Shown here: positions 29,365 through 44,540 of the stretch, piece by piece
How the letters are laid out: every line of letters begins with the position of its first letter
Numbering within the stretch: position 1 is the stretch's first letter
NCBI RefSeq assembly: GCF_025999835.1
Contig: NZ_AP025628.1
Span: 62,001 to 126,000, forward strand
Direction of reading: 5' to 3'
From: Caldinitratiruptor microaerophilus
GTDB lineage: Bacteria; Bacillota; Sulfobacillia; Symbiobacteriales; ZC4RG38
DNA length: 64,000 bases
Made by a program: the position numbers and the translations under genes
Notes under the pieces: model-generated
What the model saw: the letters and a program-made list of their open reading frames with translations, nothing else
Databases searched by the model: none
Told to the model about the DNA's origin: nothing

Positions 29365-30231
29365 TCAGAATCCCGGTACCACGGCGCCCTGGAAGGTCTC
29401 CTCGATGAACTTCCTGATCTGGGGCGAGTGGTACGCCTCGACGACCTTCCGGAACTCGGGCCGGTCCTTCTCCTTCTCCCGCACGGCGATGACGTTCACG
29501 TACGGCGAGTTCTGCTCGACGAAGATCGCGTCCTTCCTGGGGTTCAGGCCCGCCTCCATCGCGTAGTTCGTGTTGATCACCGCGGCGTCGACGTCCGGCA
29601 GGACCCGGGGCAGCTGGGCGGCGTCGAGCTCCTGGAACCTCAGCCCCTTCGGGTTCTCGACCACGTCCCGGGGGCTCGCCAGGATCCCGGCCTCCGGCTT
29701 CAGCTTGATGAGCCCCGCCTGCTGCAGGACCAGCAGCGCCCGGCCGCCGTTGGTCGGGTCGTTCGGGATCGCCACGGTGCCGCCCTGGCGGATCTCGTCG
29801 AGCTTCTGGATCTTCCGGGAGTAGACGCCCATCGGGAAGGTCACGGTCCTGGCGATGGAGACCAGGTGGAAGCCCCGCTCCTTGTTCTCGGTGTCGAGGT
29901 AGGGCTGGTGCTGGAAGGAGTTCAGGTCCAGGTCGCCGGCCTCCAGGGCCTGGTTCGGGATCTTGTAGTCGGTGAAGACCTTGATGTCCAGGCGGATGCC
30001 CTGGGGCTCAAGGAGCTTCGCCACTTCCTTCATGATCTGCTCGTGCGGCCCGGCGGTCACGCCGACCCGGAGCACCACCGGGCTCGTGGCGCCGCCGGCG
30101 TCGGACGCACCCGCCACGGGAGCACCGGCGTTCGCCGCGCCGGCGGCGCCGCCCGCGGGCTTCGAGCCGCACCCGGTGAGAAGGGCCAGGGTCGTGAGGG
30201 CTACCGCGAAGGAGAGCCAGACTCTGCGCAT
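29365..30231 (-). CDS. metQ: D-methionine ABC transporter substrate-binding lipoprotein MetQ
   Basis: 288 aa of the NlpA family. Signal peptide with lipobox LLTGC (Cys21), an Ala/Gly-rich tether, then LRVGVTAGPHEQIMKEV, DLDLNSFQHQPYL, TVAIPNDPTNGGRAL and AAVINTNYAMEAGL, all MetQ hallmarks. It binds methionine outside the cell for MetNI. It is the last gene of the minus-strand metNIQ unit controlled by an upstream S-box. 151 bp separate it from metI, with GC-rich hairpins but no gene. Confidence 0.94.
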   Translation of the reverse strand: MRRVWLSFAVALTTLALLTGCGSKPAGGAAGAANAGAPVAGASDAGGATSPVVLRVGVTAGPHEQIMKEVAKLLEPQGIRLDIKVFTDYKIPNQALEAGDLDLNSFQHQPYLDTENKERGFHLVSIARTVTFPMGVYSRKIQKLDEIRQGGTVAIPNDPTNGGRALLVLQQAGLIKLKPEAGILASPRDVVENPKGLRFQELDAAQLPRVLPDVDAAVINTNYAMEAGLNPRKDAIFVEQNSPYVNVIAVREKEKDRPEFRKVVEAYHSPQIRKFIEETFQGAVVPGF

Positions 30232-30382
30232 CGTTGGATACGACCTCCCAGTGCGTGGTGAGGACCCGTGAAGAGGGAGAACCGGTGGGCGCCGGTCCAG
30301 GCGCGCGGGCCTGCCGGCCGCCGCGCCGGTGGGGGATGCCGGCCTCCCCCGCCCGCCTCGCGGCGTCCGGATGCAGGGCTCG

Positions 30383-31063
30383 CTAGCGCCGGTCGAGCGC
30401 CCGCACGGTGCGGTCGCCCAGGGCCTGCAGGGCCTGGACGATGACCACCAGCAGGATCACGGTGGCGATCATCACGTCGCCGCGGTACCGGTAGTAGCCG
30501 TAGTTGATGGCGAGCTGGCCGAGCCCACCCGCCCCCACGGCGCCGGTGATGGCCGAGTAGGCCACGAGGTTGACGACGAGCACGGTGGCGCTGTGCACGA
30601 GTCCCGGCAGGGCCTCCGGGAGCAGCACCTTGCGGACGATCTGCCAGGGGCTGGCGCCCATGACCAGGGCCGCCTGGATGACGCCGGGGTCGACCTCCCG
30701 CAGGTTGCCGTCCACGAGGCGGGCGAGGAACGGAGTCGCCGCCACGGTGAGGGAGACGACCGCGGCGGTGGGGCCGATGGTCGTCCCCACGATGAGCCGC
30801 GTGAGCGGGATCAGGGCGACCACCAGGATGATGAAGGGTACGGACCGGACGGTGTTCACTACACTACCCAGGAGGCGGGCCAGGCCCGGGGATTCGAGGA
30901 CGTGGCCCCTGTCGGTCACGGTGAGCAGAACGCCGAGCGGTACCCCGAGGACGACGGCGAACAGGGTGGACAACCCGACCATGTAAAGGGTCTCCAGGAC
31001 GGCCTTCAAGAGGTCAGGGCCCATCTCGTCCAGGAAGACGGCCAGGCTCCACGGCTCAGGCAT
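30383..31063 (-). CDS. metI: D-methionine ABC transporter permease MetI
   Basis: 226 aa with five membrane segments and the MetI landmarks ETLYMVGLSTLFAVVLGVPLGV, NTVRSVPFIILVVALIPLTRLIVGT and GASPWQIVRKVLLPEALPGLV, the EAA coupling loop. AIATGAVGAGGLGQLAINYGYYRY-like C-terminus is as expected. The start overlaps the metN stop by 8 bp, so the genes are translationally coupled. Confidence 0.94.
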   Translation of the reverse strand: MPEPWSLAVFLDEMGPDLLKAVLETLYMVGLSTLFAVVLGVPLGVLLTVTDRGHVLESPGLARLLGSVVNTVRSVPFIILVVALIPLTRLIVGTTIGPTAAVVSLTVAATPFLARLVDGNLREVDPGVIQAALVMGASPWQIVRKVLLPEALPGLVHSATVLVVNLVAYSAITGAVGAGGLGQLAINYGYYRYRGDVMIATVILLVVIVQALQALGDRTVRALDRR

Positions 31064-32090
31064 GATGCAGCACCTCCACGATGAGTCCCTGATCGGTCAG
31101 GAACTCGGTCGCCCGGGCGACGTCCTGCGGCGCTCCCCGCAGCTCCAGGGTGAGGGCGCCGAAGGGGGACTCGCCGATCTGGTCGACCTTCCCCCGCAGC
31201 ACGTTCGCCTCGACGGCGAAGCGGCGGACCATGCGCGAGATCACGGGTTCGGCGGCCGTGGGGCCCACGAACGTCACGTGCACGTAGCGGCGATCCTCGC
31301 CCGCCGGATGGGGCTTGCCGTTCACGGTCACCCACGCTGGTAGCGGGCCGTCACCACGCAGGTCCTCCAGGAAAGCCCGCGTGACGGCGGAGCGGGGGCG
31401 GCTGAAGACCTCGAGCACGGGCCCTTCCTCCACGATCCGCCCGCCCTCCATCACCGCGACCCGGTCGCAGACCTGACGGATCACGTCCATCTCGTGGGTG
31501 ACGAGCACGATGGTCAGCCCCAGCCTCCGGCCCAGGTCCCGGAGGAGCGCCAGGATGGAGCGGGTCGTCTGCGGGTCGAGGGCGGAGGTGGCCTCGTCCG
31601 ACAGCAGCACGGCCGGGTCGGTGGCCAGCGCCCGGGCGATGGCCACCCGCTGCTTCTGGCCGCCGGAGAGCTGGGATGGATAGGCACCGGCCCGGTCGCC
31701 GAGCCCCACCAGGTCCAGCAGTTCGGCCACCCGCCGGCGGATCTGCGCCCGCGGCACCCCGGCGATCTCCAGCGGGAGGGCCACGTTCTCCGCCGCCGTG
31801 CGGGAGCGCAGGAGGTTGAAGTGCTGGAAGATCATCCCCAGGCGGCGGCGCTCGGCCCGCAGCGCCGCCCCGCGCAGGTGGGTCACGTCGCGGCCGTCGA
31901 GGTAGACGGCTCCCTCATCCGGCTGCTCCAGAAGGGCCATGGTCCGGATCAGCGTGCTCTTGCCGGCTCCGCTCAGGCCGATGATGCCGAACACCTCGCC
32001 CTTCCGGACGTGGAGGTTCACGCCGACCAGGGCGGGGACGGTCCCGGCCGGTGTGCGGAAGGACTTGCTGACGTTCTTGAGGACGATCAC
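31056..32090 (-). CDS. metN: D-methionine ABC transporter ATPase MetN
   Basis: About 344 aa. Walker A GLSGAGKSTLIR, MetN-type IFQHFNLLRSRTAAENV, signature QLSGGQKQRVAIA, Walker B VLLSDEATSALDPQTT, then LVTHEMDVI. The C-terminal 80 residues form the NIL regulatory domain, which binds methionine and causes trans-inhibition. The annotated open frame to 32198 runs back into the riboswitch terminator, so I take GTG 32090, just before VLKNVSKSF, as start. Transcription is controlled by the S-box at 32217-32330. Confidence 0.93.
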   Translation of the reverse strand: MIVLKNVSKSFRTPAGTVPALVGVNLHVRKGEVFGIIGLSGAGKSTLIRTMALLEQPDEGAVYLDGRDVTHLRGAALRAERRRLGMIFQHFNLLRSRTAAENVALPLEIAGVPRAQIRRRVAELLDLVGLGDRAGAYPSQLSGGQKQRVAIARALATDPAVLLSDEATSALDPQTTRSILALLRDLGRRLGLTIVLVTHEMDVIRQVCDRVAVMEGGRIVEEGPVLEVFSRPRSAVTRAFLEDLRGDGPLPAWVTVNGKPHPAGEDRRYVHVTFVGPTAAEPVISRMVRRFAVEANVLRGKVDQIGESPFGALTLELRGAPQDVARATEFLTDQGLIVEVLHHA

Positions 32091-32164
32091 TGCCGCATCG
32101 GCACTCCCTTCCGTGGAGCTGCGGGCGCCGGTGCCCGGCGGTCCCCGCAGCGGCCCCTGCGGGA

Positions 32165-32211
32165 CAAACGAAGAGGCCCTCGCGAGAGCGAGAGCCAACG
32201 CAAGCGGGCCT
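32165..32211 (-). terminator. Expression-platform terminator of the S-box
   Basis: On the minus strand AGGCCC pairs with GGGCCT across an inner CTCGC/GCGAG hairpin, followed by TTCGTTTGT. It lies directly 3' of the aptamer, as expected for transcription attenuation. Confidence 0.6.
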
Positions 32212-32548: not shown

Positions 32549-34477
32549 GTGATCGTACCGATGCGGACGCGCTTGGCCATCTTCGGGCATCCCCTCATCA
32601 CTGGCCAGTTGCGTGAGGTTGCGGCAGAGTTCGGCCCGGCGCTCGAGGTCAGGCTGGTCGATCAGGTACTCCTGTCGGAGGCCGTGGCCCTGGCGCGACA
32701 GTGGGAGGCCGAGTCCGCCGTGGACGTTTTCGTCTCGGGCGGGGCAAACGCAGCTCTGCTGAAACAGTCCGTGACCCTGCCCGTCGTGGCGTTCCGGGTC
32801 AACTCTCTTGACCTCTTGGCGGGCATCTCCAGAGCCATGGCCCTTTCGCCGGTGGTGCCGGTGGTCACCTATGGCGAGCCGCTCCACGGCCTTGGGGAGG
32901 TCTCCCATCTTTTTCGTGTGCGGGTGCTCGCCCTCGCCTATGCCTCGCGGGACGAACTCCCGAAGCGCCTCGACGAGGCCCGGCGCCTGGGAGCACGCGC
33001 CGTGGTCGGGTCGAGCCTCGTTTGCGAGTGCGCGGCCGCCGCCGGCATGCACGGTGTGCTCATCTACTCCCGCGCCTCGTTCAGGGAAGCGATCGCCAAC
33101 GCCCTGGACCTGGCGGCTGCCCGCCAGCGGGAACTCGAGCGTGCGGAACGCTTCAAGGCCATCCTCGACTTCGCCTACAGCGGCATCGTGGCTACGGACG
33201 AGGACGGCCGTATCACAGTATTTAACCCGGTGGCCGAGAAAATCGTGGGCGTATCCGCCCGAGACGCGATGGGGCGCCGCCTCGACGAAGCGGTGGGGCC
33301 CGATTGCAGCCTCATCCCCGCCATCCGGGCCCGCCAGACCGAACTGAACCAGGTTCACCGCATCGGCCGCGGTGAGGTATTGGCCAGCCACGTACCCATC
33401 GTGGTGGAAGGGCAGGCGAGAGGTTGCGTACTGACCTTTCAGGACGCGGCGGTCATCCAGCGCGGAGCCGAGCGGCTGCGGGGGCAGTCGGAGAGCCGGG
33501 GGCTCACGGCACGTTACACCCTCGCAGACGTGGTCGGGGAGAGTCCTGGGATCCGATCGGCGATTGACAAGGCGGCCCGCTACGCGCGGGTCGACTCGAC
33601 CGTCCTGATCGAGGGGGAAACCGGAACCGGCAAAGAGCTGTTCGCCCAGGGGATCCACAACGCCAGCTGCCGCCAGGACGGTCCCTTTGTCGCCATCAAC
33701 TGTGCCGCGCTGCCGGAGGCCCTCCTGGAGAGCGAACTCTTCGGTTACGAGGAGGGGGCGTTCACCGGCGCCCGTAAGGGCGGGAAGCCAGGGCTGTTCG
33801 AACTGGCCAGCCGTGGAACTATCTTCCTGGACGAGATCGGAGAACTTTCCCCCGGCCTGCAGGCGCGCCTGCTGCGTGTCCTTCAGCAGCGCCAAGTCAT
33901 GAGGGTGGGCGGCGACCGAGTCATTCCAGTCGACGTTCGCGTGATCGCTGCTACGCACCGAGACCTGCGGGCCGAGGTCACGGCAGGCCGTTTCCGCCGG
34001 GACCTCTTCTTCCGGCTCGACGTGCTGCGTCTAACCCTGCCCCCGCTTCGGGAGCGGATCGAGGACGTGCCGCTTCTGGTGGAGACCATCTTGCGTCGTT
34101 TCGACCCCGTCCTCGCAACCGAACTCCGCCCGCTCCTCGGCCGTGTCGTGCCGGTGGCGAGGCTGTACACGTGGCCCGGCAACGTGCGGGAGCTGGAAAA
34201 CGTCGTCGAACGCTTCGCGGTGACCATCCAGGGGAGTTCGTTATCGCCGCGCGAGGCGCTTGTGCGGTTTCTCACGCTGGTGGAGGAGCACATTTCTGGC
34301 AGCGGCACAAGCCCGCGCGGCGTATCCGGCCGCCCCGGCACGACTGCTTCGCGTCCGACTTCCCCCGACGACATCCGCCGCATGGTGGCCCTTGCCGGCG
34401 GTAATCGGTCAGAGGCTGCCCGCCGCCTGGGTATCAGCCGGACGACGTTGTACCGGAAACTGCGCGAAAGCAAGTAA
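32549..34477 (+). CDS. PrpR-type sigma-54-dependent activator
   Basis: 642 aa. Domains: PrpR_N ligand-sensing domain (about 55-195; VFVSGGANAALL, SLDLLAGISRAM and GSSLVCECAAAAGM), a PAS domain (about 205-305), and AAA+ with GETGTGKE (356-363), GAFTGA (403-408) and FLDEIGELSPGLQ. A C-terminal Fis helix-turn-helix (GGNRSEAARRLGISRTTLYR) ends it. PrpR_N proteins sense propionate-pathway acids such as 2-methylcitrate. I take GTG 32549 behind AAGGA; ATG 32561 is possible. A near-consensus sigma-54 promoter lies about 90 bp downstream, so its target is the CoA-transferase/lyase/ABC operon. It is not linked to prp genes here. Confidence 0.93.
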   Translation: MIVPMRTRLAIFGHPLITGQLREVAAEFGPALEVRLVDQVLLSEAVALARQWEAESAVDVFVSGGANAALLKQSVTLPVVAFRVNSLDLLAGISRAMALSPVVPVVTYGEPLHGLGEVSHLFRVRVLALAYASRDELPKRLDEARRLGARAVVGSSLVCECAAAAGMHGVLIYSRASFREAIANALDLAAARQRELERAERFKAILDFAYSGIVATDEDGRITVFNPVAEKIVGVSARDAMGRRLDEAVGPDCSLIPAIRARQTELNQVHRIGRGEVLASHVPIVVEGQARGCVLTFQDAAVIQRGAERLRGQSESRGLTARYTLADVVGESPGIRSAIDKAARYARVDSTVLIEGETGTGKELFAQGIHNASCRQDGPFVAINCAALPEALLESELFGYEEGAFTGARKGGKPGLFELASRGTIFLDEIGELSPGLQARLLRVLQQRQVMRVGGDRVIPVDVRVIAATHRDLRAEVTAGRFRRDLFFRLDVLRLTLPPLRERIEDVPLLVETILRRFDPVLATELRPLLGRVVPVARLYTWPGNVRELENVVERFAVTIQGSSLSPREALVRFLTLVEEHISGSGTSPRGVSGRPGTTASRPTSPDDIRRMVALAGGNRSEAARRLGISRTTLYRKLRESK

Positions 34478-34500
34478 CACCTGTACTGTGACGGGTGGAC

Positions 34501-34512
34501 GTTACACGTAAC
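34501..34512. promoter_or_regulatory. GTTACACGTAAC palindrome, candidate enhancer site for the PrpR-type activator
   Basis: A perfect 5+2+5 inverted repeat 55 bp upstream of the -24 box. A second GTAACAC lies at 34474-34480, overlapping the activator stop. Spacing fits an upstream activating sequence; binding is inferred. Confidence 0.4.
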
Positions 34513-34566
34513 ACACCGGGATCACGGCGCGGCGCCGCGTCTTTCGTTTTGTGGCGGGACCCGGTC

Positions 34567-34583
34567 TTGGCACAGTTGTTGCT
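34567..34583 (+). promoter_or_regulatory. Sigma-54 (-24/-12) promoter of the CoA-transferase/lyase/ABC operon
   Basis: TTGGCACAGTTGTTGCT is an essentially perfect match to YTGGCAC-N5-TTGCW. It sits about 90 bp after the activator gene and about 90 bp before the CoA-transferase start. Confidence 0.9.
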
Positions 34584-34675
34584 GTATACGGACGAAAGGC
34601 ATAGCTCCTGTGACGACACCGGGTCGCCCGGGAACCCGTGGTCGTGCGCATTCCGTGGGTCAGGAAGTGATTCGG

Positions 34676-35908
34676 GTGCCAAGAAGCGATGCGGTCCAGT
34701 CGGCCGCCCGGGGTCCGCTCGCCGGCGTGCGCGTTGTCGAACTGGGAGTGCTACTCGCCGGGCCGTTCGTCGGTCGTCTGCTCGGAGACTTCGGCGCGGA
34801 GATCATCAAGGTAGAACAGCCTGGCAAGGGAGATCCCCTTCGAGAGTGGGGGCACCACCGGTACAAGGGCCGCACCCTATGGTGGCCGGTGCAGTCCCGG
34901 AACAAGAAGTGCATCACGCTGGACCTGCATACCGAGAAAGGCCGAGAACTGCTCAAGCGCTTGGTGGCGGTCTCGGACGTCCTGGTGGAGAATTTTCGCC
35001 CCGGTGTGATGGAGGGGTGGGGGCTCGGTTGGGAAGAGCTCTCCAGGATCAACCCGCGTCTGATCATGGCCCGCGTGTCCGGTTACGGCCAGACGGGACC
35101 CTACGCGTCTCGTGCGGGCTTCGCGAGCGTCGGCGAGGCGATGGGCGGCCTCCGGTACATCAACGGCTATCCTGGGCAGGCGCCCCCCCGGACGGGCATC
35201 TCGCTCGGCGATTCCCTCGCTGCCATGTTTGCCACCCAGGGGATCCTCATGGCTCTGTACTGGCGTGACGCGCTCGGCGGTGGGCGCGGGCAGGTGGTGG
35301 ATGCCTCCATCATGGAGTCCTGCTTTGCCTTGCTGGAGAGCGCCGTGCCCGAGTACGACCGGCTGGGCGTCATCCGGGAGCCGTCAGGGACCGGCTTGCA
35401 GAAGGTGGTCCCGTCGAACCTGTACAGGTCGAGGGACGGCAAGTGGATGGTGATCGCCGCCAACGCCGACAACGTTTTCCGCAGGTTGTGCCAGGCAATC
35501 GGCCGCCCGGAACTGGCGGACGACCCGCGTTTCGCCACCCACGCTGCCCGCGGCGAGCACGCGGAGGAGATCGACAGTATCATCGCCGAGTGGGCGGCCG
35601 AACGGGACGCAGCGGAGATTGACCGAATCCTCAACGACGCAGGGGTCGTCTGCGGGCCGATCTACACCATCGCGGATATCTTCCGAGACCCGCATTATCG
35701 AGCTCGGGAAATGATTATTCAGATGTACGACCCCGACATCGGTCCGTTCGCGGCGCCCGGGATCATCCCGAAGCTCTCCGTGACGCCGGGGGCCGCACTT
35801 TGGGCCGGCCCGTCGCGGCTGGGCACCCACAACGAGGAGATCTACTGCGGGCTTCTCGGCCTCTCGAAGGAGGAACTGGCGGAACTCGAGCGGCAGGGGG
35901 TGGTGTAG
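34676..35908 (+). CDS. Class III (CaiB/BaiF family) acyl-CoA transferase
   Basis: 410 aa. N-terminal GVRVVELGVLLAGPFVGRLLGDFGAEIIKVE (landmarks AGPFVGRLLGDFGA and IIKVE), LVENFRPG, ARVSGYGQTGPY, and TGISLGDSLAAMFA with the Asp at the position of the catalytic aspartate of formyl-CoA transferase. GGGRGQVVDASIMES follows, and VVCGPIYTIADIF near the C-terminus. These enzymes move CoA between carboxylates through an enzyme-acyl anhydride. GTG 34676 behind AGGAAG is chosen among several in-frame GTGs. As first gene of the sigma-54 operon, and next to a lyase, it probably activates the imported acid. Confidence 0.9.
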   Translation: MPRSDAVQSAARGPLAGVRVVELGVLLAGPFVGRLLGDFGAEIIKVEQPGKGDPLREWGHHRYKGRTLWWPVQSRNKKCITLDLHTEKGRELLKRLVAVSDVLVENFRPGVMEGWGLGWEELSRINPRLIMARVSGYGQTGPYASRAGFASVGEAMGGLRYINGYPGQAPPRTGISLGDSLAAMFATQGILMALYWRDALGGGRGQVVDASIMESCFALLESAVPEYDRLGVIREPSGTGLQKVVPSNLYRSRDGKWMVIAANADNVFRRLCQAIGRPELADDPRFATHAARGEHAEEIDSIIAEWAAERDAAEIDRILNDAGVVCGPIYTIADIFRDPHYRAREMIIQMYDPDIGPFAAPGIIPKLSVTPGAALWAGPSRLGTHNEEIYCGLLGLSKEELAELERQGVV

Positions 35909-35911
35909 GCC

Positions 35912-36829
35912 GTGGTGACCGTGTGCGAGGTGGGTCCGCGCGACGGCCTGCAGAACGAGCCGACCTTGCTGCCGCTCGAAGTGAAGGCCGAGCTGGTTCG
36001 ACGTCTGGTGGACGCGGGCCTACGCCGTATCGAGGTGGGCAGCTTTGTGCATCCCAAGGCCGTGCCCCAGATGGCCGATACCGACCGTCTATGCGAACGG
36101 ATCCCCCGCAGTCCGCAGGTGACGTATGCCGGGCTCGTGCTGAACGAGAAGGGTTTCGACCGGGCGGTGTTGGCGGGTGTGCAGCAGGTGAACTTCGCCT
36201 TCGCCGCGACCGAGACGTTCAATCAGCGCAACCAGCGCGCGTCCACGCAAGAAAGCCTGGACGCTTTCCAGCAGATCGCCCGAAGAGCCCGAGAGGCCGG
36301 CATGCGCTGCGCCTTAACCATCGGGGCCGCGTTCGGCTGCCCGTTCGAGGGGGAGGTGCCGGAGGAGCGGATCGTCGGGTTCGCGGTTCGAGCTGCCGAG
36401 GCAGGCGCGGACGAGATCGTGCTTGCCGATACCATCGGCGTGGCCGTTCCCTCACAGGTTTCACGGCTCCTGCGGCATGTCCGGGAAGCTGTGGGAAACT
36501 CCCTCCCCGTCGGCGTGCACCTCCACAACACCCGCAATACGGGGTACGCCAACGCGTACGCGGCGCTGGAGGCCGGCGCCACGATCGTGGACGCCGCTGT
36601 CGGCGGGACGGGGGGCTGTCCGTTCGCCCCTCGGGCCACCGGCAACATCGCCACCGAGGATCTCGTGTACATGCTGCACCGGATGGGCATCCAAACCGGT
36701 ATCGATCTCGACCGCCTCATCGAGACGGCGCAGTGGCTGGAGGCGCAAATCGGCCGTACGCTACCGGGACAGTTGATGAAGGCGGGCGGGTTCCCTCCCC
36801 CGGGCACCGGGTTGAGCAGGGCAGGGTGA
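35912..36829 (+). CDS. HMG-CoA lyase-like acyl-CoA lyase (DRE-TIM metallolyase)
   Basis: 305 aa. EVGPRDGLQNE with catalytic R10/D11, metal ligands H203 and H205 in VHLHNTRNTG, and the catalytic-loop Cys236 in GGCPFAPRATGNIATED. The overall fold and Cys loop match HMG-CoA lyase, but HNTRNTG replaces the usual HDTYGQ, a variant class whose substrates may be HMG-CoA, citramalyl-CoA or related tertiary-hydroxy thioesters. It would split such a CoA ester into an oxo acid and acetyl-CoA. The gene begins 3 bp after the CoA-transferase stop, so product hand-off is likely. Confidence 0.9.
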   Translation: MVTVCEVGPRDGLQNEPTLLPLEVKAELVRRLVDAGLRRIEVGSFVHPKAVPQMADTDRLCERIPRSPQVTYAGLVLNEKGFDRAVLAGVQQVNFAFAATETFNQRNQRASTQESLDAFQQIARRAREAGMRCALTIGAAFGCPFEGEVPEERIVGFAVRAAEAGADEIVLADTIGVAVPSQVSRLLRHVREAVGNSLPVGVHLHNTRNTGYANAYAALEAGATIVDAAVGGTGGCPFAPRATGNIATEDLVYMLHRMGIQTGIDLDRLIETAQWLEAQIGRTLPGQLMKAGGFPPPGTGLSRAG

Positions 36830-36915
36830 GGACGGTGTTGGGGCAGGCCAGCCAGCCAGGACGGTGTTATGAGTATACGTTTTTCACTACTCACAAAGCA
36901 GGGAGGCGAGTGTTC

Positions 36916-37995
36916 ATGCGGCGGCGTGAGTTCCTGAGGCTCATCGGACAGGCTGGGGTATTGGCGGCGGGCGGTTACCTGTTCGGCTGCGCCGCGCCGC
37001 GCCAGCAGGCCCAGCAGGGCGGGGCGCCACAGGGCGGTCAGGGGGCCGGAGCGGCGGCAGGAGGGTCGGGTCCCCTCCTTTCGGCCGAGATCACGGTCAC
37101 GCACTGGCCGTCCCTTCTCTACGGCGTTCCCTGGATGGTGGCGCTGGACAAGGGCTACTTCAAGGAAGAGCGGATTGAACTGAAGGGCATCGTGGGGTCG
37201 GACGGCGGCGGCACCACGGTGCGGAACGTGGTGACGGGGGGCCTTCCCATCGGTGAGGTGGCCACCGCCGCGGCTTACCGCGCCTGGGCCGCGGGAGCCC
37301 CGCTGATCGTGGTCGGCGGCGGCGTGCGTAGCGTCTCCGAGATCAACTGGGTCACGCGGGAGGACCGCTCGGACATCCAGACGATCCAGGACCTGCGGGG
37401 AAAGAAGATCGCTTTCACGAGCCCCGGCTCCGTAACAGAGGCCGTGCTCACGTTGAGCCTGAAGAAGGCAGGGCTCGACCCACTCAAGGACGTCCAGATG
37501 ATCGCCGCCGGTGGCGTGTCCAAGGGGCTCACGGCGCTGAAGGAGGGCGCTGTCGATGCGGCCGCGGACATGGAGCCGGTTTACTCGGCCAAGCCGGAAG
37601 GGCTGCGGGTAGTCTTTTGGGCGCGCGACTTCGTGCCGGCATTCCAGCAGACCGTGCTCATCGTGGGCCCCGATCTGGTCAAGCAGGGCGGCGAGGCGAT
37701 CCGGGCGCTCTTGCGGGCGCGGCGCAAGGGCATCGAGTACGTGGTGGCCCATCGGGACGAGGCGGCCGAGATCTTCGCGCGGGAGTCCAAGCTGCCGGTC
37801 GAAGCGTGCCGCAAGGCCCTCGAGACGGTGAAGCCGGACGTCTACTACACGGCGGGGCTCGACCCGGCCGGCCTGCAGGCGGTCGAGGAGCAGCTCCGGA
37901 TCATGGGGCTGGCCCCCGCGGACGGCAAGGTGCCGTGGAAAGACTTCGTCAACCAGGACTTCCTGCCGGACGGCGTCGGCAAGATCACCCTCTGA
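36916..37995 (+). CDS. ABC substrate-binding protein, SsuA/TauA/NMT1 type, Tat lipoprotein
   Basis: 359 aa. Export signal MRRREFLRLIGQAGVLAAGG has a twin-arginine SRRxFL-like motif and ends in lipobox FGC (Cys25). After a Gln/Gly-rich tether the NMT1-like fold follows: HWPSLLYGVPWMVALDKGYFKEE, IGEVATAAAYRAWAAGAP, LRGKKIAFTSPGSVTEAVL. It would bind an organic anion outside the cell. An 86-bp gap precedes it with a GGGAGG ribosome binding site. Tat export of a lipoprotein is unusual for this family and suggests folding before export. Confidence 0.9.
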   Translation: MRRREFLRLIGQAGVLAAGGYLFGCAAPRQQAQQGGAPQGGQGAGAAAGGSGPLLSAEITVTHWPSLLYGVPWMVALDKGYFKEERIELKGIVGSDGGGTTVRNVVTGGLPIGEVATAAAYRAWAAGAPLIVVGGGVRSVSEINWVTREDRSDIQTIQDLRGKKIAFTSPGSVTEAVLTLSLKKAGLDPLKDVQMIAAGGVSKGLTALKEGAVDAAADMEPVYSAKPEGLRVVFWARDFVPAFQQTVLIVGPDLVKQGGEAIRALLRARRKGIEYVVAHRDEAAEIFARESKLPVEACRKALETVKPDVYYTAGLDPAGLQAVEEQLRIMGLAPADGKVPWKDFVNQDFLPDGVGKITL

Positions 37996-38007
37996 GCGGG
38001 TGGGCCC

Positions 38008-38787
38008 ATGCTCGAGCTCATCGACGTGCGCAAGGTGTTCCGGCCGGAAAACGGTGAACCCGTCGAGGCCGTGGCCGGTGTCAGCCTGACGGTGGAGCGG
38101 GGCGAATTCGTGTCCATCGTGGGGCCGAGCGGCTGCGGGAAGTCGACCCTCCTGGAGATCATCGCCGGGCTCACGGAGCCGACCTCAGGCGAGGTGCGCC
38201 TGGACGGCGTTCCGCTCGCCAGCCCGCACCCGTCGGTCGGGGTCGTGTTCCAGGAGGACTCGACGTTCCCATGGCGGACGGTGCTCGAGAACGTGGAATT
38301 CGGCCTCGCGATGCGCGGGGTTCCACCGGCGGAGCGGCGGGAGAAGGCGCGGCGGATGATCCGGGCGGTGGGGCTCGCGGGCTTCGAGAAGGCCTACCCC
38401 CCGGAACTGTCCGGGGGGATGCGGCAACGGGTCGCCATCGCGCGTACTCTTGTGCTCGAGCCCGCCCTGCTGCTGATGGACGAGCCGTTCGGCGCCCTCG
38501 ATGAGCAGACACGGCTTGTCCTCGGTGAGGAACTGCTGCGTTTGTGGGCGCAGACAGGGTCCACGGTGGTCTTCGTGACTCACTCGCTGGACGAGGCGGT
38601 GCTCCTGTCCGACCGCGTGTGCGTGATGAGTGCCCGTCCAGGGCGGGTGAAGGACGTGGTGCGAGTCGGCCTGCCTCGCCCCCGGGACTCCAGCGTCATC
38701 GGTACGCCGGCATTTGGCGCCCTGACCGGCCGGATCTGGGAGAACCTGCGGGAAGAGGCCCTGCGCGCCATGGGTCGCGACGCGTGA
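38008..38787 (+). CDS. ABC transporter ATPase, SsuB/TauB type
   Basis: 259 aa with Walker A GPSGCGKSTLLEIIAG, Q-loop VFQEDSTFPWRTVLENV, signature ELSGGMRQRVAIA, Walker B LLLMDEPFGALDEQT and H-loop VFVTHSLDEAVLLSDRV. The wording of the Q-loop and DEPFGALD is diagnostic of the nitrate/sulfonate/taurine importer family. It starts 12 bp after the binding-protein gene and energises the two permeases that follow. Confidence 0.94.
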   Translation: MLELIDVRKVFRPENGEPVEAVAGVSLTVERGEFVSIVGPSGCGKSTLLEIIAGLTEPTSGEVRLDGVPLASPHPSVGVVFQEDSTFPWRTVLENVEFGLAMRGVPPAERREKARRMIRAVGLAGFEKAYPPELSGGMRQRVAIARTLVLEPALLLMDEPFGALDEQTRLVLGEELLRLWAQTGSTVVFVTHSLDEAVLLSDRVCVMSARPGRVKDVVRVGLPRPRDSSVIGTPAFGALTGRIWENLREEALRAMGRDA

Positions 38788-38800
38788 GAGGGCGGTGACC

Positions 38801-39556
38801 ATGAGCCACCGGCGCAAGGTTCAAGCGGCTCGGGCGATCGCGCTGGTCGTCGGGCTCGCCTTCCTGGAACTGGGCCCGCGCCTGGGGTGGGTTGACCGCC
38901 TCACCCTGGTGCCGCTGTCCGAAGTCTTACGTTCTCTCCACGCTCAGCTTGTTCAGGGAAAACTGACGGAACACCTCGGGGCATCCGCCGTCACTGTCGT
39001 TACGGCCTTCGGCCTAGCGGTCCTGACGGGTGTCCCGGCGGGGTTGCTGCTATGGCGACTTCCCAAGGTCCGGGCCTTACTAGAACCGTACCTGGCCTCG
39101 TACTACGCGGTGCCGGTGTTTGCCCTGTACCCGCTTCTCATCTCGCTCCTGGGCATGGGCTACCTGCCGATCGTGGCGATTGCCTGGGGCTGGTCGGTGG
39201 TCGCCGTGGTGGTGAACACGGCGGTGGGATTCACGCAGGTCCGGCCGGTGTACCGGAAGCTTGCGGTCACCCTGCGTCTCACCCCATGGCAGACCTTCCG
39301 CCACATCCTCTTCCCGGCCGCCGCTCCGTACGTCTTCAACGGGATCAAACTGGCCGTGACGTATTCCGTGATCGGGGTCATCGCGTCGGAGTTCATCCTG
39401 GCCCCGAGGGGGCTGGGGTGGCTGATCTCTTACCACTACAACAATTTCAGCCTGCGGGAGATGTACGCGGCGCTCGCGCTGGTCCTCGTTCTGGCCACCG
39501 GGATCTACACGGCTGTGGGGCGCGCCGAGCGCGCGGTCAGGAGGCGGGCCGGATGA
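38801..39556 (+). CDS. ABC transporter permease, SsuC/TauC type (first of two)
   Basis: 251 aa, about six membrane segments, coupling EAA-type loop in KLAVTLRLTPWQTFRHILFPAAAPYVFNGI (landmarks TLRLTPWQTF and HILFPAA) and a C-terminal FSLREMYAALALV. ATG 38801 lies behind GAGGGCGG; an in-frame GTG at 38795 is possible. Its stop overlaps the start of the second permease by 4 bp (ATGA), so the two are made in equal amounts and probably form a heterodimer. Confidence 0.91.
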   Translation: MSHRRKVQAARAIALVVGLAFLELGPRLGWVDRLTLVPLSEVLRSLHAQLVQGKLTEHLGASAVTVVTAFGLAVLTGVPAGLLLWRLPKVRALLEPYLASYYAVPVFALYPLLISLLGMGYLPIVAIAWGWSVVAVVVNTAVGFTQVRPVYRKLAVTLRLTPWQTFRHILFPAAAPYVFNGIKLAVTYSVIGVIASEFILAPRGLGWLISYHYNNFSLREMYAALALVLVLATGIYTAVGRAERAVRRRAG

Positions 39557-40374
39557 TGCCAGCCGCCGCGCGTCTGGAGCGTTGGCGACACGTGCTCGTG
39601 CTGGGCGTGCTGGTGGGCGTGTGGCAGGTTGCGGCGATGGAACTGGGCGGGTTCGTCGTCGCCTCGCCCGCCGAAACCCTCCGCTCCCTGGGCGAAGGCC
39701 TGCGGGACGGGTGGCTTCCCACTGCCACCTGGGTGACGCTGAAGGAGACGGTGCTGGGTTACGCACTCGCCGTGGCCACCGGCGTCTCTGCCGGCATCCT
39801 GCTGGGGCGCCACCGCTTCTGGGGAGAGGTCTTCGACCCCTTGATCGCCCTGGTGTACTCCATTCCGAAGGTCACCCTGTACCCGGTGTTCCTGCTGCTC
39901 TTCGGACTCGGCTACGCCTCCAAGGTCGCCTTCGGTTGGTTCCACGGCGTCTTTCCGATCCTGATCTTCACAGCCGCAGGCATCCGGACGGTGCGGCCGG
40001 TCTACCACAAGCTGGCGCGCACGCTCGGCCTGAGCCCGTGGCAGCGGTTCTACCACGTCGAGTTCCCCGCGGCGCTGCCGGCCGTACTCACCGGCCTGCG
40101 CTTCGGCTTCAGCCTCACCTTCCTCGGGACGATCCTGGGCGAGATGTTCGCCTCCAAGCACGGCCTCGGCTTCGAGCTGATGCAGGCCACCACGGTGCAC
40201 GTGGTCCCACGGATCTTCGCCCTCATCCTCGTCATGGTCGTGCTTGCGGTTCTCGCCAACGGCCTTCTGGTGCGGTTCGAGGGGACGGTGACGCGGCAGG
40301 GTGGCCCCAGCTCGGCGGCGCGCCGGGCGAGCCCGGGTGCTCCCGGGGAGGTGGGATTCCGTTCGGCTTCTTGA
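39553..40374 (+). CDS. ABC transporter permease, SsuC/TauC type (second of two)
   Basis: 273 aa. Six membrane segments, FDPLIALVYSIPKVTLYPVFLLLFG in the middle, EAA loop LARTLGLSPWQRFYHVEFPAALPAVLTGL (landmarks TLGLSPWQRF and VEFPAALP), and a hydrophilic C-terminal tail. Last gene of the operon. The long open frame upstream to 39052 overlaps the first permease and is not used. Most SsuC/TauC importers have a single permease gene; a two-gene pair suggests an asymmetric channel. Confidence 0.9.
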   Translation: MMPAAARLERWRHVLVLGVLVGVWQVAAMELGGFVVASPAETLRSLGEGLRDGWLPTATWVTLKETVLGYALAVATGVSAGILLGRHRFWGEVFDPLIALVYSIPKVTLYPVFLLLFGLGYASKVAFGWFHGVFPILIFTAAGIRTVRPVYHKLARTLGLSPWQRFYHVEFPAALPAVLTGLRFGFSLTFLGTILGEMFASKHGLGFELMQATTVHVVPRIFALILVMVVLAVLANGLLVRFEGTVTRQGGPSSAARRASPGAPGEVGFRSAS

Positions 40375-40481
40375 TCCTTCCACCCACCCAGGATCTCGCC
40401 CCCTGGCTCCGGTCGTGGGGTACCCGTGGGTCAGAAGGAGCCCCGGCGAACCCGTGATCCCGCACTAACCCCTGGTCTCTA

Positions 40482-40511
40482 TGGACAGCCCCGCCGGACG
40501 CACGGTAAACT
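40482..40511 (+). promoter_or_regulatory. Sigma-A promoter of the cobalamin riboswitch transcript
   Basis: TGGACA (-35), 18-bp spacer, TAAACT (-10). Predicted start about 25 nt before the aptamer. Confidence 0.6.
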
Positions 40512-40542
40512 GCCGGTAATTGCACAACTACATATGCAAATC

Positions 40543-40709
40543 GACCGGGTGGCCTGCGCCGCCGGCACAGGCTGAAAAAGGGAAGTGCGGTGAGAATCCG
40601 CCGCGGTCGCGCCACTGTGAGCGGGGAGTTCCCGGCACGAGGCCACTGTCCGAACGGACGGGAAGGCGCCGGAGGGCGACGATCCGCAAGCCAGGAGACC
40701 GGCCCGGTC
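40543..40709 (+). promoter_or_regulatory. Cobalamin (B12) riboswitch
   Basis: Aptamer elements in order: P1 arm GACCGGG, GAAAAAGGGAAG, GGTGAGAATCCGC, GCGGTCGCGCCACTGTGAGC, CCACTGT, GGGAAGGCGCCGGAGG, GCGACGATCCGCAAGCC, the B12-box AGGAGACC, and the closing P1 arm CCCGGTC. A complete consensus core is kept. It would repress downstream genes when adenosylcobalamin is bound. The downstream cobB/cbiA gene is broken, so this switch now appears to control remnants. Confidence 0.93.
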
Positions 40710-42935: not shown

Positions 42936-44540
42936 TCACTCCTTGGCCAGACCGGCGTACATCTGCCGGAGCTCCCGCTTGAGGATCTTCCCGCTGGGGT
43001 TCTTGGGGAGCCGGTCGACCGTGACCACGTACTTCGGTACCTTGAACCCGGCGAGGTGCTGGCGACAGAGGGACAGGATCTCCTCGGGGTCGATCCGCTC
43101 CCCTGCCTTGGGGACGACCACCGCGGTCACGGCTTCGATCCAGTAGGGGTGGGGGATGCCGATCACGGCGACCTCGGACACCTTCGGGTGCCGGTAGATG
43201 ACCTCTTCCACCTCGCGGCTGGCGACGTTCTCGCCGCCCGTCTTGATCATGTCCTTCTTGCGGTCGACCACGGTGAGGTAACCGTCCTCGTCCATCACTC
43301 CGAGGTCACCGCTGTGGAACCAGCCGCCCCGGAAGGCCTCGGCGGTCTTCTCGGGGTCGTTCCAGTAGCCCAGCATGGCGTGGGGGCTGCGGTGGACGAT
43401 CTCACCGACGGTCCCCGGCGGTACGGGCCGTCCCTCGTCGTCGACCAGGATCGTCTCCACGTTCAGGCAGGCTTTGCCGGCCGAGCCGGGCTTGGTGAAC
43501 TGCTCCTCGGGCTTGAGGATCGTGGCCACGGGGCTCATCTCGGTCTGCCCGTAGAAGTTCCACAGGCGCACGTTCGGGAGGCGGCGGGAGAGCTCGCGCA
43601 GGACCTCGACGGGCATGATGGCGGCGCCGTAGTACCCCTTGCGCAGCGAGGACAGGTCGTGGCGGTCGAACTCCGGCGAGCGCAGCAGCGCGATCCACAC
43701 GGTGGGCGGGCAGAAGAGCTTGGTGACCCGCTCCTGCTCGATCGTCTGCAGGATCGTGGCCGGGTCGGGCCCCGTCAGGATGATGCTGGTGGCGCCCAGG
43801 TAGACGTCCGGCGTGAGGAAGCAGTGCAGCTGCGCCGAGTGGTAGAGAGGGAGGGCGTGGATCTCGACGTCGTCGTGGGACATCTCGCCGTCGACGATGG
43901 CGCTCACGTACTGGGCGATGAGCGAGCGGCTGGTGAGCATCACGCCCTTGGGCCGGGACTCGGTGCCGCTGGTGTAAAGAAGCTGGATGGGATCGTCGTC
44001 GCCGACTTCGGCCTGGGGTTCCGAATCGTCCGGGTGGGCCATCCAGGCGTCGATCGGCTCCCACCCCGGGGGCACCGGCAGGCCGTTCAGGTCGATCCAG
44101 CCCCGTACCCGCCCGGCGTCGGTCCCCTGCCGGGCGGCCAGGCGCAGGGCTTCCTCGGCCACCGGCGCCAGGGCGTCTTCCACCACGATACCGGACGCCC
44201 CTGAGTGGTTCAGGATGTAGGCCACTTCCTCGCCCTTGAGCATGAAGTTCACGGGCACCGAGATGGCGCCGAGCTTGGCCAGCGCGAAGTAGAGGACGGC
44301 GAACCCGTGGCAGTTGTGGGACAGCAGGGCGATGCGATCGCCCTTCTGCACGCCGCGCTCACGGAGGGCATGGGCGGTGCGGTTCACGGCGGCATTGAAG
44401 TCGGCGTATGTCTGGCGGAGGTCACGGAACACGACGGCGGTCTTTGTGGGATAGCGGGCCGCGGTGCGCCGAAGCAGATCTCCGATGGTGTGCCGGCGGG
44501 CCAGGGCGATCGCTGCTGGCAGTTCCACAGAATCTTCCAC
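42936..44540 (-). CDS. Acyl-CoA synthetase (AMP-forming, FadD13-like)
   Basis: 534 aa. LLYTSGTESRPKGVMLTSRS (the second Gly/Thr of the usual TSGTTG loop is Glu, as in some FadD13-like enzymes), LPLYHSAQLHCFLTPD, WNFYGQTEMSPVATIL, hinge VDRKKDMIKTGGENVASREVE (landmarks DRKKDMIKT and ENVASRE), and catalytic Lys in NPSGKILKRE. It activates a fatty or cyclic carboxylic acid. ATG 44540 follows GGAAAGGGTGG. It is downstream of the DUF62 and GH31 genes on the same strand but is probably metabolically separate. Confidence 0.93.
   Translation of the reverse strand: MEDSVELPAAIALARRHTIGDLLRRTAARYPTKTAVVFRDLRQTYADFNAAVNRTAHALRERGVQKGDRIALLSHNCHGFAVLYFALAKLGAISVPVNFMLKGEEVAYILNHSGASGIVVEDALAPVAEEALRLAARQGTDAGRVRGWIDLNGLPVPPGWEPIDAWMAHPDDSEPQAEVGDDDPIQLLYTSGTESRPKGVMLTSRSLIAQYVSAIVDGEMSHDDVEIHALPLYHSAQLHCFLTPDVYLGATSIILTGPDPATILQTIEQERVTKLFCPPTVWIALLRSPEFDRHDLSSLRKGYYGAAIMPVEVLRELSRRLPNVRLWNFYGQTEMSPVATILKPEEQFTKPGSAGKACLNVETILVDDEGRPVPPGTVGEIVHRSPHAMLGYWNDPEKTAEAFRGGWFHSGDLGVMDEDGYLTVVDRKKDMIKTGGENVASREVEEVIYRHPKVSEVAVIGIPHPYWIEAVTAVVVPKAGERIDPEEILSLCRQHLAGFKVPKYVVTVDRLPKNPSGKILKRELRQMYAGLAKE

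Follow-up and report, generated by a model that had tools for sequence, protein, structure and literature searches.

A candidate PrpR- and sigma-54-controlled operon for uptake and coenzyme A-dependent cleavage of a 2-alkylmalate in Caldinitratiruptor microaerophilus

What is taken up and cleaved where a PrpR-type activator stands before genes for a coenzyme A (CoA)-transferase, an HMGL-like lyase and an ATP-binding cassette (ABC) importer? This arrangement occupies positions 32549 to 40374 of a 64,000-nucleotide stretch of Caldinitratiruptor microaerophilus DNA (NZ_AP025628.1, positions 62,001 to 126,000; hereafter the window). We suggest that it is probably a catabolic operon, induced by its substrate, that serves the uptake and CoA-dependent cleavage of a 2-alkylmalate, most likely (R)-citramalate. 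The PrpR-type protein would respond to the acid or to one of its derivatives and activate the promoter at 34568 together with sigma-54, and the NMT1-type importer would bring the acid in. The CoA-transferase would then move CoA from succinyl-CoA onto the acid, and the lyase would split the thioester into acetyl-CoA and an oxo acid (pyruvate for citramalate, or homologous products). Substrate, inducer, CoA donor (succinyl-CoA) and transport direction are predictions. Their observed basis is the gene content and spacing, the promoter and its recurrence, the conservation of the transferase-lyase pair, the retained catalytic residues and the kinship with a Chloroflexus gene pair.

The six genes for transferase, lyase, binding protein, ATPase and two permeases are closely spaced on the forward strand, like the activator (Table 1), with gaps of 3, 86, 12 and 7 bp and a 4-bp overlap between the permease genes. 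The open reading frames (ORFs) and their Pfam and NCBIfam matches agree with the gene content, strand and spacing given by a sequence-only reading of this region, and the GAFTGA, HNTRNTG and GGCPFA motifs that it named are present in the translations. A simple terminator scan of 40300-40700, after the last gene, found none. The operon contains neither prpBCD nor a hydratase gene, its cargo being transferase, lyase and importer.

Table 1. Genes and candidate regulatory elements of the operon (positions in the window)
Feature	Position	Strand	Remarks
PrpR-type sigma-54-dependent activator	32549..34477	+	PrpR_N, PAS, AAA+, Fis-type HTH; start alternatively 32513
Candidate activator half-site pair GTTAC-AC-GTAAC	34501..34512	+	55 bp upstream of the -24 element; pattern picked post hoc
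Sigma-54 (-24/-12) promoter TGGCACAGTTGTTGCT	34568..34583	+	unique in the window, 11/12 consensus
Class III (CaiB/BaiF, Frc-type) CoA-transferase, Sct-like	34667..35908	+	start alternatively 34610 or 34676
HMGL-like DRE-TIM lyase, (R)-citramalyl-CoA lyase-like	35912..36829	+	motif HLHNTRNTGYAN
NMT1/SsuA-superfamily solute-binding protein, probable lipoprotein	36916..37995	+	FGC near residue 32, by reading
ABC transporter ATPase	38008..38787	+	ABC_tran 125 bits
ABC transporter permease A	38795..39556	+	BPD_transp_1 80 bits
ABC transporter permease B	39553..40374	+	BPD_transp_1 98 bits

The transferase gives stronger evidence than the lyase does. It matches CoA_transf_3 with 421 bits in Pfam, and D182, which we take to be the catalytic aspartate of class III CoA-transferases, is invariant in all 65 aligned rows. 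The protein is 57% identical to a transferase beside a lyase in a Chloroflexus-type genome (L183; loci are cited by our own numbers) and 32% identical to human succinate-3-hydroxy-3-methylglutarate (HMG) CoA-transferase (9br7). In a tree of 66 rows (64 of the 76 transferase-bearing loci, the window and one stretch from the Protein Data Bank, PDB), the human enzyme, SUGCT, sits on a very long branch. If L183 is sct, an identity that is itself deduced, the window transferase is nearer to Chloroflexus Sct than to SUGCT.

The genome carrying L183 has a chlorosome protein gene and is very probably that of Chloroflexus aurantiacus. Of its two strong HMGL-like matches, one immediately follows a class III transferase gene; the other (L184) has no transferase in its 15-kb stretch. 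The genome has six matches to class III transferases, of which one is interrupted by stops. Three form a cluster at 0.22 Mb, the place expected for the Smt/Mct genes, and the lyase-adjacent one lies at 3.084 Mb. This transferase and lyase are presumably Caur_2266 (Sct) and Caur_2265 (Ccl). From its position, its uniqueness and these presumed tags we infer that the locus is the characterised sct/ccl. On this reading, the best-placed CHARACTERISED relatives of the window pair are two Chloroflexus enzymes, succinyl-CoA:(R)-citramalate CoA-transferase and (R)-citramalyl-CoA lyase. Both loci hold an adjacent class III transferase and HMGL-type lyase in the same order, with 49% identity between the lyases and an identical lyase motif. 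They differ in their surroundings, since the Chloroflexus pair is followed by HyuA, HyuB, isochorismatase and two ABC ATPase genes and has a GntR-type gene upstream, whereas the window has PrpR and the NMT1 ABC importer.

The window lyase scores 180 bits against HMGL-like in Pfam. In the alignment it retains the equivalents of Arg41, Asp42, Glu72, His233, His235, Cys266, Asn275 and Glu279, eight residues to which we ascribe metal-binding or catalytic roles. Its motif HLHNTRNTGYAN is identical in L183, L185 and L186. In the human and Bacillus subtilis HMG-CoA lyases, Asp takes the place of the first Asn and Gly that of the second (D236N, G239N). The position of human Tyr167, presumably an acyl-pocket residue of human-type HMG-CoA lyase, is Thr136 in the window; Thr is found there in 43 of 59 transferase-paired lyases, and Tyr in 9 of 52 unpaired ones. 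A tree of 140 rows (136 of the 156 lyase loci, duplicates and fragments shorter than 250 aa being dropped, plus the window and three PDB stretches) was built by a quick method with a midpoint root. It places the window in a mostly transferase-paired part (94 rows, 60 of them paired; split support 82), apart from the human and B. subtilis enzymes. According to PMC6689899, a CitE-type lyase uses (S)-citramalyl-CoA and (R)-HMG-CoA and the TIM-barrel type uses (S)-HMG-CoA, so that (R)-citramalyl-CoA would be the expected partner of a TIM-barrel lyase.

Transferase and lyase form a widely conserved pair that occurs in several phyla. Relatives of the lyase were taken from a sample of 151 genomes, including that of C. 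microaerophilus, and from 80 named loci, which are the best 80 of 596 matches; 56 of the 80 are at least 15 kb long, and absences partly reflect contig ends. A class III CoA-transferase (counted above 200 bits; other counts used differing bit thresholds and hence differ) is found in the fetched stretch of 47 of the 80, so orthologous clusters keep the pairing that the sequence-only reading had drawn from this locus. These loci hold 51 transferase genes, 30 within 500 bp of the lyase match, 20 at 0.5-6 kb, often with HyuA/HyuB between, and one beyond 6 kb, a distance distribution which argues that the pairing is not background. In the class of C. microaerophilus, the pair is carried by 9 of 29 short lyase loci (L004-L032). 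Carriers near the pair in other relatives are of the TTT (L036, L046), SSF (L044, L107, L112) and TRAP (L117) types, which often transport organic acids. The L046 locus is a second pair in the C. microaerophilus genome itself (G000:C1:577000-593000; 585-587 kb), followed by TctC and TctA and with a LacI-type gene just upstream.

The activator shows PrpR_N (123 bits), PAS, Sigma54_activat (230 bits) and HTH_8 matches in Pfam and, on reading, the GAFTGA motif, as had been noted from the sequence. With PrpR_N, sigma-54 AAA+ and HTH domains all found, we classify it as a PrpR-like sigma-54 activator, although it misses the NCBIfam PrpR equivalog cut-off (469.9 vs 499.2 bits). The near-perfect -24/-12 promoter reported earlier was also recovered. 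TGGCACAGTTGTTGCT, at 34568-34583, is the sole match to TGGCAC-N5-TTGCW in the 64 kb, where 0.01 would be expected; it fits 11 of 12 consensus positions, and none of 300 shuffles is as good. The shuffles, 300 per region, preserve single-base composition only. A gene for the sigma-54 factor (rpoN) is encoded in the genome, a single 3.60-Mb contig. The GTTAC/GTAAC pair is likewise the only match in the window, with 0 in 100 shuffles; we rejected it as a proven operator, since arms as good as the best ones in its 90-bp stretch arise by chance often enough (P 0.135), and it remains a candidate.

As to the ligand, the PrpR_N domain matches the solved E. coli PrpR sensor (2pju) with an E-value of 2.4e-21. 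A sensor tuned to a 2-methylcitrate-like compound had been proposed by inference, and the data speak neither for nor against it; we rejected 2-methylcitrate as an evident inducer because this likeness is moderate and the genome's second PrpR-like gene has other cargo. Behind that second PrpR_N activator (L047, G000:C1:1178000-1196000) come an 11/12 -24/-12 site (11185) and genes for an enoyl-CoA hydratase and an ABC importer of the branched-chain type, which indicates that PrpR_N activators go with other cargo too.

The promoter recurs. Wherever a PrpR-like gene directly adjoins the pair, a -24/-12 site precedes the transferase, with 11 of 12 positions in the window, 10 in L036, 11 in L044 and 10 in L083, the same score being reached by 0, 0.7, 0.3 and 2% of 300 shuffles, respectively. 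L107, with a weaker PrpR-like match about 4 kb away, has a 10/12 site some 0.6 kb ahead of the lyase, a score that 1% of shuffles reached. A further locus, L045, carries an activator and a lyase gene but lacks a transferase. No good site was found in the regions tested of L112 and L046, which have no PrpR-like match in their stretches (7/12 and 6/12).

The L083 locus, from the alphaproteobacterium Enterovirga aerilata, deserves separate treatment. TGGCAYG-N4-TTGC and GTTTCA-N21-TGAAAC, two patterns fitted post hoc, each match exactly twice in its 20.9 kb. One match of each stands before the transferase-lyase genes and one of each before a divergent unit of PrpB-like, LeuC, LeuD, binding protein, ATPase and permease genes, the binding protein being 40% identical to that of the window. 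In this distant lineage, the sites and operator-like repeats thus link the pair with the importer family and the activator type as parts of one putative regulon. A LeuCD/aconitase-family hydratase could form (R)-citramalate from citraconate, and aconitase-family hydratases are found near the pair in L083, L041 and L043. In the last two, from the class of C. microaerophilus, transferase, lyase, an NMT1 binding protein and aconitase lie in one run, followed by an ATPase in L041; the two binding proteins show only weak similarity to that of the window (43 and 35 bits). The aconitase genes in L039 and L051 were considered as pathway genes and rejected: those of L039 adjoin ketol-acid reductoisomerase and isopropylmalate-dehydrogenase-type genes, L051 shares those clusters, and both look like leucine biosynthesis.

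The binding protein of the window matches NMT1 with 102 bits in Pfam. An importer of the same family was found in 5 of 297 genomes searched, including Enterovirga. PrpB/ICL-superfamily genes, some of whose products cleave 2-alkylmalates, flank it in two of four further genomes (L199, L200), and L199 also has an acetamidase/formamidase-family gene.

Is such a system already described? The two-step chemistry is. EC 2.8.3.20 and EC 4.1.3.46, for Sct and (R)-citramalyl-CoA lyase, are in print (PMC8307300), and therefore the transferase-lyase route is not new as chemistry; the Sct paper appears in the reference list of PMC9196870. The sequence-only reading knew of no described system with this exact set, and in the literature searched no description was found of the pair packaged with an NMT1 importer under PrpR and a sigma-54 promoter. 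Other known systems share parts of the arrangement. The PrpR-prpBCDE system has the PrpR_N sensor and the sigma-54 promoter, and the Enterovirga relative adds PrpB-like and aconitase-family genes; it differs in that the window activator falls under the PrpR equivalog cut-off and the operon carries no prpBCD. Human SUGCT and HMGCL, which serve glutarate and leucine, belong to the same two enzyme families, but SUGCT is distant in identity and HMGCL stands elsewhere in the lyase tree. The itaconate cluster (Ict-Ich-Ccl) of Pseudomonas and Cupriavidus has a CitE-type lyase. It likewise activates its substrate with CoA and then converts citramalyl-CoA to acetyl-CoA and pyruvate, but with (S)-stereochemistry and an additional hydratase step, and the accessible text names neither PrpR nor an NMT1 importer (PMC12290011).

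Several observations weigh against the citramalate proposal. The window operon itself lacks a hydratase. The Chloroflexus genome and its sct/ccl locus are putative identifications. The window and the Chloroflexus lyases do share the 94-row part of the tree, but this part, set off by a split with support of only 82, also holds L051 from a leucine-type operon, and other lyases stand closer to the window than the Chloroflexus group does. The motif Asn is also present in 30 of the 52 unpaired lyases, and the Tyr167 position is Ala in 6 of 7 Chloroflexus-group rows and Thr in the window, so a match of the acyl pocket is not established. The importer is rare, with a match at E<=1e-20 in one of the 153 other genomes of the class (154 searched, its own included), and L201 and L202 carry the same-family importer with no match to a PrpB-like protein, transferase or lyase close by. 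Among the fetched loci, a nearly full set recurs in L083 alone. The L083 LeuC and LeuD exceed the NCBIfam 3-isopropylmalate dehydratase cut-offs (682 vs 560 and 200 vs 116 bits), a point against a hydratase specialised for citraconate. The PrpB-like proteins and the L041 aconitase-family enzyme score below equivalog cut-offs.

An operon for acid uptake, CoA activation and carbon-carbon cleavage, as proposed from the sequence, is supported by the genes and by the conserved pair. HMG, which that proposal had named, fits less well than (R)-citramalate. We consider it unlikely that the operon imports HMG, converts it to HMG-CoA with succinyl-CoA as donor and splits the thioester into acetyl-CoA and acetoacetate. 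The lyase does exceed the cut-off of the NCBIfam HMG-CoA lyase subfamily (PRK05692, 326 vs 246 bits), a subfamily model that assigns no substrate; its catalytic residues are those of HMG-CoA lyase, and the best-scoring solved transferase is the human succinate-HMG enzyme. Against this stand the transferase identities of 32% to the HMG enzyme and 57% to the Chloroflexus one, the placement of the lyase outside the human/B. subtilis group with its D236N, G239N and Y167T changes, and the hydratase and PrpB-like neighbours in relatives, which have no role in HMG breakdown. There is very little probability that the lyase is an ordinary HMG-CoA lyase of leucine breakdown with the importer as an unrelated neighbour. 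The L051 lyase, 60% identical, in the same clade and among the window's nearest, does come from what looks like a leucine-breakdown operon, with genes for a biotin-dependent carboxylase, an acyl-CoA dehydrogenase-type protein and a carboxyltransferase, and the C. microaerophilus genome has three carboxyltransferase homologues, two of them at 53% identity. That would not account for a tight operon including a transferase unneeded for leucine breakdown, for the conservation of the pair across several phyla, or for a single sigma-54 promoter before all six genes.

Two other readings concern the imported compound. NMT1-type importers often carry N-heterocycles, and the imported compound could be a nitrogen-bearing precursor (an imide, half-amide or lactam of an alkylmaleate or alkylmalate) that enzymes from other loci would open before the pair completes the route. 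The transferases closest to the window's, those of L055 (68% identical) and L037 (61%), lie within transferase-lyase-HyuA-HyuB-isochorismatase operons, the L199 importer stands with PrpB-like and acetamidase/formamidase-family enzymes, and C. microaerophilus has HyuA/HyuB genes beside TctC/TctA. The window operon, however, has no amidase or HyuAB gene, and the genome's own HyuAB is 0.57 Mb distant and has its own importer, so this strikes us as rather improbable. Uptake of a sulfonate, nitrate or a thiamine precursor, with co-transcription by chance, is more doubtful still, and we give it hardly any weight. Among curated models, the binding protein and ATPase score best against SsuA/TauB-like ones, and the solved relatives of the binding protein include a ThiY-type protein and SsuA, but these matches are weak or below cut-off. 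All NCBIfam matches listed for the binding protein, ATPase and permease A (for the ATPase, the best 25 of 186) score below cut-off, and the three proteins reach none of those for SsuA/TauA/nitrate/thiamine-type transporters. Moreover, the same-family importer recurs with PrpB-like genes (L199, L200) and with PrpR, LeuCD and the pair (L083), and a different NMT1 binding protein lies within the gene run of the pair in L041 and L043.

If the citramalate proposal is right, the operon would suggest where (R)-citramalyl-CoA chemistry serves catabolism in nature. The enzymology of this chemistry is known from Chloroflexus, where, to our knowledge, it has no agreed physiological role. The operon yields a testable set of substrates, a promoter and a candidate operator, and it exposes a conserved transferase-lyase-HyuAB-hydrolase cluster.

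In this wider cluster, the pair occurs together with HyuA and HyuB in 28 of the 80 named loci (L050, L053-L058, L061, L064, L065, L069, L070, L073, L076-L078, L085, L087-L089, L092, L101, L103, L109, L116, L121, L123 and L126; also in L183, L185 and L186), and an isochorismatase-family hydrolase is present too in 23. The cluster spans Pseudomonadota, Actinomycetota and Chloroflexus-type genomes, and the candidate sct/ccl locus of Chloroflexus shows the same transferase-lyase-HyuA-HyuB-isochorismatase order. The L055 HyuA and HyuB are caprolactamase-like (CapA 533 and CapB 222 bits, both under the cut-off of 1000). Nearby genes encode a cytosine/purine/allantoin-type permease in L055 and a LeuC-like protein in L037, and L117 has the pair and isochorismatase, without HyuAB, with an arylmalonate-decarboxylase/Asp-Glu-racemase-family gene. 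No description of the transferase-lyase-HyuAB-hydrolase set turned up in the literature searched.

Very tentatively, the Sct/Ccl-like pair might end a widespread undescribed route in which HyuAB would open an imide or lactam, the isochorismatase-type amidase would hydrolyse the half-amide, a LeuCD/aconitase-family hydratase would, in some lineages, hydrate the alkylmaleate, and the pair would cut the alkylmalate into acyl-CoA and an oxo acid. Tetrapyrrole-derived alkylated maleimides are one candidate source, and the window operon would be an import-only, PrpR-controlled branch. Such a route, if true, would explain what the Chloroflexus pair is for.

The HyuAB genes of C. microaerophilus belong to a TctC-TctA-HyuA-HyuB run (L188, G000:C1:664000-682000; HyuAB at 0.67 Mb). 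The L078 record, a metagenome-assembled genome (MAG), probably bears a wrong title, Klebsiella pneumoniae: both its lyase and its transferase fall among those of Steroidobacteraceae and other proteobacterial MAGs. Within the window, an AMP-binding acyl-CoA ligase gene (42936-44540, reverse strand) lies downstream of the operon on the opposite strand and was left out of it. Upstream of the activator, a MetQ-MetI-MetN-like ABC importer is encoded at 29365-32198 on the reverse strand, as judged by reading the translations by eye.

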